From NCBI GenBank assembly GCA_018057455.1, contig JAGPDT010000010.1, positions 1 to 58,943 of the forward strand: DNA of 58,943 nt. Direction: 5' to 3'. This DNA comes from Flavobacteriales bacterium (lineage in GTDB: Bacteria > Bacteroidota > Bacteroidia > Flavobacteriales_F > PHOS-HE28). Position 1 is the stretch's first letter, and every line of letters starts with the position of its first letter. The notes beneath the pieces were generated by a model. The model worked only from the letters and a program-made list of their open reading frames with translations. It was not told where the DNA came from and did no database searches. Positions 5,349-35,255 of the stretch are shown piece by piece. The position numbers were made by a program, and so were the translations under genes.

Positions 5349-6373
5349 CACGGCGAAATGGGGTCCTCCTCTTTTTCCTTCACTGCATGCAATCGGGCCC
5401 ACAGGAGGTCCTTGAGCCGGTCCATGCCTTGGTTGGCCACGGCACTGATGAAGATATGCTCAACACCGATGGGCAGTTCAACTTGCAAGGCAGTGCGCAA
5501 TTCCTCGTCCAGCAGGTCGCTCTTGGAAATGGCCAGGATCCGGTCCTTGTCCAGCAATTCGGGCGAATACTGCTTGAGTTCGTTGAGCAGCACATTGAAT
5601 TCGGCCTTGATGTCCGGGCTATCGGCGGCCACCATGAAGAGCAGCACGCTGTTGCGTTCGATGTGGCGCAGGAAGCGCAGGCCGATGCCTTTGCCCTCGC
5701 TGGCCCCTTCAATGATGCCGGGGATGTCGGCCATGACGAAGCTCTGCCCTCCATGGTAGGGCACAATGCCCAGGTTGGGCACCAGCGTGGTGAAGGGGTA
5801 GTCGGCGATCTTGGGCTTGGCGGCGCTGAGCACCGAGAGCAGGGTGCTCTTGCCGGCATTTGGGTGGCCCACCAAGCCTACATCGGCCAGCACCTTCAAT
5901 TCCAGGATGAACCATTTCTCACGTCCGGGTTCACCGGGTTGGGCGAAACGCGGCGTTTGGAAGGTGGAGCTATGGAAATGCTGGTTGCCCAAGCCGCCGC
6001 GGCCGCCCAGGAGCAGGGTGGTTTCCTGGCCGTCCTCGGTGATCTCGCCCAGGACCTCGCCGGTCTCGGCGTCCCTGGCAATGGTGCCCAGGGGCACTTC
6101 GATCACGCGGTCCTCGCCGGATCGGCCACTGCGTTGGTTGCTGCCGCCGGACTCGCCGTCGCCGGCGATGACGTGCTTGGTGTAGCGCAGATGCAGCAAG
6201 GTCCACAAATGCGGGTTGGCGCGCATGACCACATGGCCCCCGCGCCCACCGTCCCCCCCATCAGGCCCGCCCTTGGGCACGTACTTCTCGCGCCGCAGGT
6301 GGCGGCTGCCCGCCCCGCCCTTTCCGGAGCGGCACTCGATGCGGATCTGGTCGATGAAGTTGGCGGAGGACAT
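5348..6373 (-). CDS. obgE: Obg-family GTPase, 50S ribosome assembly
   Basis: 341 residues. The N-terminal Obg fold is glycine rich ([25 protein letters not shown]), followed by a G domain with P-loop GHPNAGKST, switch I around DYPFTT, G3 in [10 protein letters not shown] and a G4 position reading SKSD in place of NKxD. The SKxD form seems to be common in Bacteroidota ObgE, from memory. Obg binds late 50S intermediates and links growth to nucleotide pools. It is downstream of adk with a 27-nt gap, and its stop overlaps the PAP2 start by one base. Confidence 0.95.
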
Positions 6374-6400
6374 GGCAGCAGGTTGTGCGCGTTGGACGTT

Positions 6401-6976
<576 letters not shown>

Positions 6977-31481: not shown

Positions 31482-32312
31482 CTATGGCAGGTCATCATCC
31501 CCATTCCCTTCATGCTGCATCACCAGCAGGGGCAGGTTGGTGTGCAGCGCCAAACGCTTGGCCGTGCTGATCCGGAAGAGGTCCTCCAGAAAACCGGCAT
31601 GGCGGTGCAGCACGGCGATCATGGCCGCTCCTTCGCGCTCGGCCAGCATGTCAATGGTGCCGGCCACGTCCTTTCCTTCCTCCGAGACATAGCGGTGCGG
31701 CACGGCCTGCAAAAGTTCATCGAAGAGCGCCACCAAGGCCGTGCGTGGAAGCTCCTCGGCGTTGCGCAGCACATGGGCCAGCACCACCTCGGCGCGGGTA
31801 CGCAAGGCGATGTGGAGCAGCATCTTCAGGTCGTGGGGCTTCACCCGGCGCTGGTCGTCGGCAAAGAGGATACGGTGCACCCCGTTGAGCCCTGCCTTGG
31901 AAGGCACCACCAGCACGGGCACATGGCACTGCTTCACCACGCTGGCCGCGTTGCTGCCAAGCAAGCCGCCGCCGGATCGGCCTTGAGTGCCCATCACCAC
32001 CAGGTCCGCCGATTTCTCCCGGGCCATTTCGTTCAGCACCCCTGTCAGCGGGCCGAACACCACATCCTTGCCCACCTTGGCTCCGCGGAACGCCTCCGAC
32101 CCCCGGATCCGTTCCAGCCAATGCACCATGCCCTCGTTGGCGGCCCTGTACAGCTCCTCGGCCATGCTGCCCCAGGAGGTCACCGAAGGATCGGCGTCCA
32201 TGTACGTATGCACCAGGACGTATGACACATGCTCCACCCCCATCAACCCGGCGGCATACTGGGCGGCATGGTATGCATGGTCGCTATAATCGGTGGGGAG
32301 CAGGATACGCAT
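31482..32312 (-). CDS. Tandem universal stress protein
   Basis: 276 residues with two UspA-like halves. The first carries the ATP-binding motif VVMGTQGRSGGGLLGSNAASVV; the second (from about residue 145) has lost this glycine-rich motif. It starts MRILLPTDYSDHAYHAAQYA. Usp proteins bind ATP or AMP during stress. A TTG-N17-TAATTTTG promoter lies just upstream. Its stop is 21 nt from the end of the convergent DCC1-like gene. Confidence 0.9.
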   Translation of the reverse strand: MRILLPTDYSDHAYHAAQYAAGLMGVEHVSYVLVHTYMDADPSVTSWGSMAEELYRAANEGMVHWLERIRGSEAFRGAKVGKDVVFGPLTGVLNEMAREKSADLVVMGTQGRSGGGLLGSNAASVVKQCHVPVLVVPSKAGLNGVHRILFADDQRRVKPHDLKMLLHIALRTRAEVVLAHVLRNAEELPRTALVALFDELLQAVPHRYVSEEGKDVAGTIDMLAEREGAAMIAVLHRHAGFLEDLFRISTAKRLALHTNLPLLVMQHEGNGDDDLP

Positions 32313-32362: not shown

Positions 32363-32429
32363 GGCCGCCGGCAAGCACAAGCTGATGAAGATCATGCACC
32401 GTACCCGGGCCGACCGCTAATCTTGGGCG

Positions 32430-32975
32430 ATGGCCCTTTTGCTGGACGACCGCGCCGAGGCGGGAACGATCGGTACGATCGAGGAGTTGATCCGTTTGCT
32501 CAGTGAGGAAACGCGCCCGGCAGGCTACACGGAAGTGATGCAACGCCTGTCCGTGGCGCCGGAAAGTCTCTCCCCTTTCTGTATTTGGGACCAGCGGCAA
32601 TACACCCGCAAGAGCCTGCACCGCAGCCGCGCCCATGAGCTGCTGCTGATCTGCTATGAACCGGGCCAGCGCACCAGCATCCACGACTACGACAGCCAAA
32701 TGGCATGGATCAAACCCGTGCTGGGCAGCGTGTGCGAAGAGCGCTACAAGCTTGCCGGCAATGGCGAACTCAAGCTGCAAGGGCAACGGAAGCTGGAAAC
32801 CGGCCCCTTGGCGTACATGACCACCAAGGATTGCATCCACCGCCATACCAACATGGGGCCGGGCCGTGCCATCACGCTCAATCTCTACGTGCGGCCCATC
32901 AGCCGGTGGCGCGTCTACGACGAACGCACGGGCCGTTCTTCGCTGTCCGGCACTTCGCATCCGTCCCACCAATAA
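32430..32975 (+). CDS. Cysteine-dioxygenase-like cupin with altered metal site
   Basis: 181 residues matching type I cysteine dioxygenase over its length: YEPGQRTSIHDYDSQMAW, DCIHRHTN and LNLYVRPISRWRVYDERTG align with the mammalian enzyme. Normal enzymes bind Fe(II) with three His; here the second is Tyr87 (IHDY in place of IHDH), while His85 and His137 remain. The catalytic Ser-His-Tyr triad (SLHLY) reads TLNLY, so the His is Asn151, and the Cys of the Cys-Tyr crosslink is also absent. It may use another substrate, bind metal differently or be inactive. Its next neighbour on the same strand is the PAS kinase, 15 nt away. Confidence 0.75.
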   Translation: MALLLDDRAEAGTIGTIEELIRLLSEETRPAGYTEVMQRLSVAPESLSPFCIWDQRQYTRKSLHRSRAHELLLICYEPGQRTSIHDYDSQMAWIKPVLGSVCEERYKLAGNGELKLQGQRKLETGPLAYMTTKDCIHRHTNMGPGRAITLNLYVRPISRWRVYDERTGRSSLSGTSHPSHQ

Positions 32976-32990
32976 CTTCACCCCCTGTTG

Positions 32991-34187
32991 ATGGTGCACG
33001 GGGAAACCAACGTTGATCCGGTCCAGTTGGAACGGGTGCGCGACATGCTCTTCAGCACGGCCGCTGAAGGGCTGGTGCTGGTGGACCGCACCGGGGCCGT
33101 ACGGATGTACAATCCACGGCTGATGGAGCTCTTCGGCTATGCCGAAGGTGAGTTGCTGGGCAAGTCCATCGAGGACCTGATGCCGGCAAGCTTCCGCCAG
33201 GCGCACAAAGGCCATCGCCATGCATTCAATGTACGGCCGAGCAAGCGGCACATGGGCCATGGCCGTGAATTGTTCGGCTTGCGCAAGGACGGGAGCATCT
33301 TCCCCGTTGAAGTGGGCCTGAACCATTTCACGGTGGACGATGAGCTGTACGTGATGGGCCTGGTAACGGACATCACCGCGCGCAAGCATGCCGAGGAGGC
33401 CTTGCAGCGCAACACCGCCGAGCTGGAAAAGCGGGTGGAGGAACGCACCGCCGAGCTGGCCAAAGGCGCCCGCGCGGTGGAGATCGCCTACGAACGGGAA
33501 AAGGAGCTGAACGCCCTCAAATCGCGCTTCGTGTCCATGGCCTCCCATGAATTCCGCACGCCGCTCAGCACCATCATGGGCTCGGCCGACCTGATCGCGC
33601 GCTACGCCGAGGCCGGCGACCAGGAGAAGATCATCAAGCACGTGCAGCGCATCCGGGGCAAGGTGCGCGACCTCACCTCCATCCTCAACGACTTCCTCTC
33701 TTTCGAACGGATCGGGCAGAGCGACGTGGTGATCCAGCCCGAAACGCTGGACATCGTGCACTTCTGCATCGGCCTGGTGGAGGAGCTGCGCGGCACGGCC
33801 AAGGCCGGGCAGGCCTTGGAGTACGACCACGGCAGCGAGGAGCGCACCATCGTCGTGGACCGCACCATGCTGCTGAACACCATCACCAACCTGGTGACCA
33901 ACGCCATCAAATACTCGCCCGAAGGTTCGGCCATCCGCCTGCGCACCTCGATCAACCAAGGCGAACTGCTGATCACCGTGGCCGACCGCGGCATCGGCAT
34001 ACCCGTGGAAGACCAGCCTCATCTGTTCACCCCTTTCTTCCGCGCCCAGAACGTGCTCACCATCCAAGGCACCGGCCTGGGCCTGCATTTGGTGAAGCGC
34101 TACGTGGACCTGATGGGCGGGGAGATCACCTTTACCAGCACGCCCGGCCACGGCAGCTCATTCTACATGCGCCTGCCGGGCAAATGA
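32991..34187 (+). CDS. PAS-domain sensor histidine kinase
   Basis: About 398 residues, no transmembrane helix, so cytosolic. PAS domain at about 10-125 (LVLVDRTGAVRMYNPRLMELFGY, EVGLNHFTVDDELYVMGLVTDIT), a coiled coil (EALQRNTAELEKRVEERTAELAK), HisKA with FVSMASHEFRTPLSTI, and HATPase with VTNAIKYSPEG (N), DRGIGIP (G1) and GTGLGLHLVKRY (G2). It lies 6 nt upstream of the receiver-Crp gene, which is the obvious phosphorylation target. Start ATG 32991; an in-frame TTG one codon earlier is unlikely. Confidence 0.93.
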   Translation: MVHGETNVDPVQLERVRDMLFSTAAEGLVLVDRTGAVRMYNPRLMELFGYAEGELLGKSIEDLMPASFRQAHKGHRHAFNVRPSKRHMGHGRELFGLRKDGSIFPVEVGLNHFTVDDELYVMGLVTDITARKHAEEALQRNTAELEKRVEERTAELAKGARAVEIAYEREKELNALKSRFVSMASHEFRTPLSTIMGSADLIARYAEAGDQEKIIKHVQRIRGKVRDLTSILNDFLSFERIGQSDVVIQPETLDIVHFCIGLVEELRGTAKAGQALEYDHGSEERTIVVDRTMLLNTITNLVTNAIKYSPEGSAIRLRTSINQGELLITVADRGIGIPVEDQPHLFTPFFRAQNVLTIQGTGLGLHLVKRYVDLMGGEITFTSTPGHGSSFYMRLPGK

Positions 34188-34193
34188 ACCACC

Positions 34194-35255
34194 ATGAAGA
34201 CCATTCTGCTCATTGAAGACGATGCGGACGTGCGCGACAACACCGCGGAGATCCTTGAACTGGCCCAGTACCGGGTGTTGAAGGCCGAGAACGGCAAGCG
34301 CGGGGTGGACCTCGCCCGCAAGGAAGTACCGGACCTGGTGCTGTGCGACATCATGATGCCCGAGCTGGACGGCTACGGCGTGTTGCACCTGCTGGGCCGC
34401 GCACCGGACACGGCGGAGATCCCCTTCATCTTCCTCACGGCCAAGGCCGAGCGCAGTGATGTCCGGCGGGGCATGGAGCTGGGCGCCGATGACTACCTCA
34501 CCAAGCCCTTCGAGGAGAGCGAACTGTTGAACGCCATCGAGGGGCGGCTCAAGCGCAGCGACCTCTTCCGCAAGGGATTCGACCGCACCCTCAACGGACT
34601 CAACGACTTCATGGAGCAGGCCCGTGGCTCGGCCGCCTTGCAGGACCTGGGCAAAGACCGCAAGACCAAGGTGTTCGAGCGCAAGGGGGTGCTCTTCCAC
34701 GAAGGCGATGAACTGCGCCATGTGCCCTTCCTGGTCTCCGGCAAAGTGCGCACCTTCAAGGTGAACAACGACGGCAAGGAACTCGTTACCGGCTTGCACG
34801 TACCGGGCGATTTCATCGGGTATTTGGGCCTGTTGGAGAGCGGCCATGCCGTGGAAACGGCCGAGGCCATGGAGGAAAGCGAGGTGGCCCTGGTGCCGCG
34901 CGAGGACCTGCTGCGCCTGCTATACCGCGACCGCGACGTGTCCATGCGTTTCATCCGCATGCTCAGCCAGGAGGTGGGCGCCAAACAGGAGCGCCTGCTT
35001 CAGCTTGCTTACGCCAGCGTGCGCCAGCGCGTGGCCCAGGCACTGCTCCAACTGCACGACCGGTTCAGTGGCCAGCCCACGGGCGAGCTCGGGGTGCGCA
35101 TCAGCCGCGATGAGCTGGCCGCCATTGTGGGCACCGCCACGGAATCGTTGATCCGCTGCCTGACCGACCTGAAGGACGAGGGCCTGATCAACACCCAGGG
35201 GCGCGACATCAGCATCACCGACCACCGGCGCTTGGTGAAGCTGTCCAACGTCTGA
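34194..35255 (+). CDS. Response regulator with Crp/Fnr-type output
   Basis: 353 residues: a receiver domain (1-120: LLIEDDADVR, phosphoacceptor Asp in LCDIMMPELDG, FLTAKAE, TKPF), then a cyclic-nucleotide-binding-like domain (about 155-260: KGVLFHEGDELRHVPFLVSGKVR, VPGDFIGYLGLLESG) and a Crp-type helix-turn-helix (about 300-350: VRISRDELAAIVGTATESLIRCLTDLKDEGLI). So phosphorylation, not only ligand binding, probably controls a Crp-like DNA-binding protein. The kinase gene immediately upstream completes the two-component pair. Confidence 0.92.
   Translation: MKTILLIEDDADVRDNTAEILELAQYRVLKAENGKRGVDLARKEVPDLVLCDIMMPELDGYGVLHLLGRAPDTAEIPFIFLTAKAERSDVRRGMELGADDYLTKPFEESELLNAIEGRLKRSDLFRKGFDRTLNGLNDFMEQARGSAALQDLGKDRKTKVFERKGVLFHEGDELRHVPFLVSGKVRTFKVNNDGKELVTGLHVPGDFIGYLGLLESGHAVETAEAMEESEVALVPREDLLRLLYRDRDVSMRFIRMLSQEVGAKQERLLQLAYASVRQRVAQALLQLHDRFSGQPTGELGVRISRDELAAIVGTATESLIRCLTDLKDEGLINTQGRDISITDHRRLVKLSNV

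Follow-up and report, generated by a model that had tools for sequence, protein, structure and literature searches.

The stretch of DNA analysed in this work (hereafter the window) covers 58,943 nt of contig JAGPDT010000010.1 from a Flavobacteriales bacterium (GCA_018057455.1). A gene whose product resembles cysteine dioxygenase (CDO) is the first gene of an operon that also encodes a PAS sensor histidine kinase and a response regulator with a receiver and a Crp/FNR-type DNA-binding domain (Table 1). The CDO-like ORF starts with ATG and ends with TAA, and the kinase ATG at 32991 gives the gap of 15 nt that a previous, sequence-only reading of this DNA had reported. The divergent universal stress protein (Usp) gene adjoins the operon in the closest relatives, but not in all loci of the genus.

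Table 1. Genes and regulatory elements at the CDO-like locus, in window coordinates.
Feature	Position	Strand	Basis or remark
Universal stress protein, divergent, shares the intergenic region	31482..32312	-	Pfam Usp
FNR/FixK-type palindrome TGATGAAGATCA, consensus TGAY-N4-RTCA, proposed operator	32383..32394	+	conserved upstream of the operon
-7-like promoter element TAATCTTG	32418..32425	+	23 nt after the palindrome
CDO-like protein	32430..32975	+	181 aa; Pfam CDO_I, PDB sequence matches, structure model
PAS sensor histidine kinase, FixL-like PAS domain	32991..34187	+	Pfam PAS, HisKA, HATPase_c
Response regulator: receiver, cNMP-binding fold, Crp/FNR HTH	34194..35255	+	Pfam Response_reg, cNMP_binding, HTH_Crp_2

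The CDO-like protein is recognized by the Pfam CDO_I profile (E 1.2e-12; score 48.1 bits, cut-off 23), which is its sole Pfam domain, i.e. there is no receiver domain, and its own genome has no other CDO_I match. The NCBIfam search assigned it to no family. Its best sequence matches in the PDB are CDO type 1 proteins, including rat, mouse and human entries, the top one being the H155N variant of the rat enzyme (4YSF). The structure model, built from 32 aligned relatives (mean pLDDT 89), has mammalian CDO entries as its closest folds (Z 22.0, 166 residues and rmsd 2.0 for the first), and the CDO fold spans residues 9-176. The clear alignment to the mammalian enzyme that was described earlier thus holds.

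The residues of the active site are only partly retained. The PDB alignments place Tyr87 (codon 32688-32690, in the motif IHDY) opposite His88, the second Fe ligand of rat CDO, and Asn151 (codon 32880-32882, TLNLY) opposite His155, the triad His, which bears out both substitutions as they were first read; rat residue numbers are used for the aligned positions. Two of the three Fe-binding His residues are kept (His85 and His137, opposite rat His86 and His140), and so are Tyr58, Tyr153 (rat Tyr157) and the carboxylate-binding Arg60. The protein accordingly has a Tyr in the three-His iron site (rat 86, 88, 140), and Thr-Asn-Tyr in place of the Ser-His-Tyr triad (rat 153, 155, 157). Two further changes, absent from the earlier reading, are Ala92 (rat Cys93) and Trp160 (rat Cys164). 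Asn at 155 is tolerable and Tyr at 88 the larger change: in 3-mercaptopropionate dioxygenase (MDO), a variant with the triad His replaced by Asn keeps its hydrogen-bond network, although its kcat is about 20-fold lower, its KM for oxygen is higher and its coupling is weaker, and in CDO the H155A variant is down by two orders of magnitude (PMC10966181). This speaks against an outright dead site. The Asn change is therefore real but milder than the sequence-only reading implied.

The CDO-like protein was found in 34 of the 35 genomes of the genus, own genome included, by the search of relatives. Of the 45 genomes of the order, which all belong to this one genus, 44 have some match to the Pfam CDO_I profile, the exception being G574 (79% complete). 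The sole CDO_I match of G005 was missed when searching with the window protein and is probably of another kind; the same genome (91% complete) has no match to the kinase. Four genomes (G001, G012, G014 and G575) contain more than one CDO_I match each, and the extra ones were left aside. The extra gene of G014 (L111, also L189), which lies on a small contig (C313) and is of the His/His kind, may be contamination. In the class, the protein occurs in 43 of 395 genomes, 16 of the 43 being from the genus. A search of plasmids returned six records (4 Vibrio, 2 Streptantibioticus) at 22-31% identity, and no paper on such a protein was found among the matches listed in the open-access PMC literature.

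The residue census was based on an alignment of 69 rows, 36 from the genus and 33 others, in which L044 and L112 are identical; L030 (Tyr/Asn) was dropped from it, as were L001, L032-L041, L043, L045 and L047, which repeat the window or other loci. In the genus, position 88 (rat numbering) is Tyr in 31 rows, Phe in 3 and His in 2, and position 155 is Asn in 34, Asp in 1 and Glu in 1. Five extra genus loci, two of which (L177 and L185) appear to be the same as L046 and L042, have Tyr in four cases and Phe in one, and Asn in all. Close homologues therefore share Tyr and Asn, and the finding that would have overturned the first reading, normal His residues in such homologues, did not materialize. 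Tyr157 is present in 35 of the 36 genus rows, and His86, His140 and Arg60 are found in all 69 rows. The dN/dS ratio of the CDO-like gene was 0.09-0.21 in 8 out of 8 pairs tested, i.e. the gene is under purifying selection.

Among the 33 rows from outside the genus, His88 occurs together with His155 in 20, and Cys93 and Cys164 are both present in 17 of these. The remaining 13 rows are without His88 (12 Tyr, 1 Phe). In the tree, the canonical proteins, with His88 and His155, are set apart by one branch (support 96/92) from a clade of 49 rows, the Tyr88 clade, in which position 88 is occupied by Tyr (43 rows, across several families), Phe (4) or His (2), Cys93 does not occur (0 of 49) and Trp stands at the Cys164 position in 45. 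The Tyr88/His155 rows fall outside the genus with Asn155, which is typical of this genus only. The tree was drawn from its midpoint and the placement of the long branches L110, L111, L107 and L087 is unsure; with a root on the canonical side, the loss of His88 and Cys93 would have preceded that of His155. Phe88 appears on three separate branches (L022 with L042; L113; L082), which weakens the case for Tyr as an obligatory ligand. One genus member, L115 (G021, gene at 6042-6755 on the minus strand), carries Glu155, His157 and Thr93. It retains the operon, the upstream palindrome, His86, His140 and Arg60 despite these changes, which fits binding better than turnover.

The association with the kinase and the regulator is a constant feature of the genus. 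Loci (L002-L031) could be obtained from 30 of the 34 genus genomes with a match; a same-strand PAS kinase lies within about 130 nt 3' of the CDO-like gene in all 30, and the receiver-Crp regulator follows in 29, the contig of L027 ending first. Four further genus loci agree 4 out of 4, with L112 being from the same species as L044. As for the kinase, FixL chains are the first PDB matches of its PAS domain (E 9.3e-15), and the heme-PAS protein DosP comes lower, with another sensor kinase in between. The kinase has a heme-PAS sequence with a proximal His that is aligned with the heme-His of FixL, and the equivalent residue is found in 86 of 87 kinase rows (locus repeats included, 7 rows from outside the genus). 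The position of FixL Arg220 is Arg in the window and its close relatives, which make up 30 of the 87 rows, and Leu and Met occupy it in 29 and 25. The heme stays a prediction because of this limited conservation, and the kinase is probably an oxygen-sensing, FixL-like protein.

The matches of the regulator to the NCBIfam Fnr and FixK models fall below the cut-offs, and homologs of the regulator at E<=1e-60 are found in 195 of the 395 class genomes. In 19 loci from outside the genus (L129-L147, inspected by eye) kinase, Usp, hemN-like, ccoG/H/S-like and comparable genes are located nearby; the regulator and kinase together look like a widespread FixL/FixK-like system. Among the loci examined, the CDO-like gene is joined to the regulator only in this genus. 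Since the regulator is far more widespread than the CDO-like protein, it can act without it.

The palindrome upstream of the operon follows TGAY-N4-RTCA, the FNR/FixK box motif. Of the 230-nt stretches from 37 genus loci (L044 and L112 being one species), 36 contain it, as compared with 0.32 expected from mononucleotide shuffles. Exactly 23 nt past the box, 33 of the 37 loci have a -7-like element, TAnnYTTG in 23 and TAnnTTCG in 10, which resembles TAnnTTTG, the promoter motif of the Bacteroidota type; among the 37 rows the element is missing at this spacing from L020, L025, L028 and L113. Class II activator sites for FNR/CRP have this spacing, and from the promoter geometry the box would occupy the class II activator position, near -41. 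By its sequence, the region upstream of the CDO-like gene therefore carries an FNR/FixK-type palindrome at activator spacing. An upstream ORF of 25 codons was considered as a leader peptide and rejected, the ORF itself not being conserved and only the palindrome inside it being so.

A scan of the own genome for the box gave 3 sites with the stricter pattern and 8 with the looser one, and the reversed control gave 0 in both. Four of the eight looser sites are promoter-like by position, namely those of this operon, a cytochrome c/narG pair, MnmH and a Cys/Met-metabolism PLP enzyme; the others are not placed at a promoter, one of them, by eye, lying inside an ABC-type gene. At the cytochrome c/narG site (L165 from 9268 onward, contig C32) the box is followed at a distance of 22 nt by a -7 motif of looser form and then by the two genes, with a narK-like gene nearby, and control of nitrate respiration is the likely function of this box. 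At the PLP enzyme, a member of the cystathionine gamma-synthase family, the order is box, 24 nt, TAGCTTCG and gene (L161, about 1496-1544 on the minus strand, contig C72), a possible regulon link to thiol metabolism. The MnmH gene is also preceded by a looser box composite. A TGAC-N4-GTCA box precedes ccoS (FixS)/ccoNO at L164 3181-3508 (contig C79), with 30 nt to a TA motif as judged by eye. Since there are five Crp-type HTH genes in the genome, the regulator of the operon itself is one candidate binder of the box among several.

The box is also found upstream of Tyr88 relatives from outside the genus, in 8 of 13 loci (0.30 expected) as opposed to 0 of 18 canonical loci (0.42 expected), although these do not count as eight independent cases, since L104 and L105 are near copies and L100, L103, L106 and L109 belong to one family. 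The His/His loci L110 and L111 are in the tree and were left out of both the box and the neighbour counts. Seven of the 13 relatives lie in cbb3-oxidase or sulfide-oxidation clusters. In L100, L103, L106 and L109 the Tyr88 gene has a CcoI-type ATPase/FNR-like regulator on one side and cbb3 genes on the other, other ORFs intervening on the ATPase side in L103 and L109. In L104, L105 and L108 it is clustered with an MBL-rhodanese protein and a Crp-type regulator, plus an SQR-like protein in L108, and these clusters appear to be of the sulfide/persulfide-oxidation type. L082 and L091 adjoin receiver/kinase genes and L087 adjoins a Usp gene; in the closely related L079-L081 neither a queried neighbour nor a box is present. 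Queried neighbours were present in 10 of 13 Tyr88 loci and 1 of 18 canonical ones, a comparison that leans to Tyr88, as the queries came mostly from Tyr88 loci and the rows share ancestry (four from one family, three from one genus). None of the 13 non-genus Tyr88 relatives is adjacent to this kinase/regulator pair. Judging from sequence and neighbourhood, the genus proteins and their Tyr88 relatives are a CDO-fold subfamily tied to low-oxygen control that lacks two defining features of CDO, the three-His iron site and the Ser-His-Tyr triad.

Our preferred reading, which we put forward tentatively, is that the protein may be a CDO-fold accessory signalling protein, i.e. a sensor or feedback partner, of a low-oxygen FixL-like two-component system. 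Low oxygen would induce the operon, probably through the regulator that it encodes. The retained pocket (two His, Arg60, Tyr58, Tyr157) could hold a metal and/or a carboxylate thiol, the third His ligand and the Cys93 cross-link partner having been given up, and in this genus the triad His too. Oxygen, NO, iron or thiol status would be reported by binding more than by turnover, and the protein may modulate the kinase in the way that FixT, to which it is unrelated, modulates FixL. In a more specific form, which we consider doubtful, the two-His pocket, with Tyr or Phe for the third His, would bind iron together with a thiol or NO without turnover and feed into the FixL-like kinase that drives the receiver-FNR regulator. 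We favour the sensor reading because the kinase/regulator operon is conserved, the box stands at the 23-nt spacing and the PAS domain is closest to FixL, because Tyr88 relatives from elsewhere carry the box, four of them beside cbb3 genes, because the box of the own genome also precedes cytochrome c/narG, and because L115 keeps the operon and the gene is under purifying selection. It is weakened by the fact that the kinase contact, the ligand and the metal are all predicted, by the Tyr88 relatives that lack the kinase/regulator pair, L079-L081 having neither queried neighbours nor box, by the much wider occurrence of the regulator, by the variable residue at the FixL Arg220 position, by the presence of several candidate binders of the box, and by the box before the Cys/Met PLP enzyme, as low-oxygen co-regulation would suit an enzyme of thiol metabolism equally. 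The sequence-only reading had offered a sensor protein, a new metal site and an enzyme with a different substrate; the FixL-like operon and the FNR-type box speak for the first, the Phe88 branches against a Tyr-ligated metal, and the third is possible.

An enzyme with altered chemistry is in fact nearly as likely as a sensor. The protein might be an active thiol (or other) oxygenase with a two-His iron site completed by the substrate, induced at low oxygen for cysteine, persulfide or sulfide and merely co-transcribed with the regulators, and we regard this as a serious if not the leading candidate. The invariance of His86, His140 and Arg60 and the near-invariance of Tyr157 in the genus would be expected of it, the sulfide-type neighbours in L104, L105 and L108 and the boxes before the PLP enzyme and the MnmH gene are consistent with it, and the His-to-Asn variant of MDO retains about 5% of kcat (PMC10966181). 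However, the Fe-ligand His88, Cys93 and the triad His are all altered, Trp replaces Cys164 in most of the Tyr88 side, L115 retains the operon even though its Tyr157 is His, and the operon of the gene itself consists of regulators and has no thiol enzymes.

It is improbable that the Tyr is a true metal ligand in a 2-His-1-Tyr site, e.g. a Fe(III)-tyrosinate with new redox chemistry: Tyr does prevail at position 88 in several families of the clade, but Phe replaces it in four rows on three branches, and His in two. Still less probable is a structural pseudoenzyme devoid of metal, with the kinase or a small carboxylate ligand as its binding partner, which would agree with the stepwise change of the catalytic residues but not with the two invariant His residues, as a metal-free protein need not keep them. 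A lone mutant, pseudogene or base error can be rejected, since the genus relatives share the changes and dN/dS is low.

If the sensor reading is right, the system, whose regulator has relatives in about half of the class genomes sampled, would have a candidate second sensor. More generally, the Tyr88 proteins are a bacterial branch of the thiol dioxygenase fold in which catalytic residues change stepwise while the protein stays tied to low-oxygen control, be it in cbb3 oxidase clusters, in sulfide-oxidation clusters or in the FixL-like operon of this genus. The natural series His/His, Tyr/His, Tyr/Asn and Phe/Asn could serve as a test of which ligands a CDO-type iron site needs.

It is useful to compare the protein and its operon to known systems. 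With CDO type I (PF05995; rat CDO, B. subtilis YubC) it has in common the fold, Arg60, Tyr58, Tyr157 and two of the three Fe-His residues, but it differs by the four substitutions described above and by the position of its gene in a signalling operon. The 3-mercaptopropionate, ergothioneine and mercaptosuccinate dioxygenases have the common cupin thiol-dioxygenase fold and match more weakly (best Z 19.5, 15.7 and 14.9). ADO and the plant cysteine oxidases have the same wider fold (Z 14.2-14.9) and a link to oxygen sensing; in animals and plants these enzymes sense oxygen by catalysis on an N-terminal Cys with a 3-His iron. The FixL-FixJ-FixK system contains the same elements, a FixL-like PAS kinase, a receiver, a FixK/FNR-type DNA-binding domain and the box, but here the receiver and the Crp-type domain are fused in one protein, and the heme is predicted. 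FixL is inhibited by FixT, an Fe-S receiver protein that can serve as an additional oxygen/redox sensor (PMC7078487). The single receiver domain of FixT is absent from the CDO-like protein in the Pfam search, which makes the latter, with its CDO-cupin fold, an analogue and not a member of that family; the role that the two may have in common is to provide a small second redox/oxygen sensor, itself a product of the system that it modulates.
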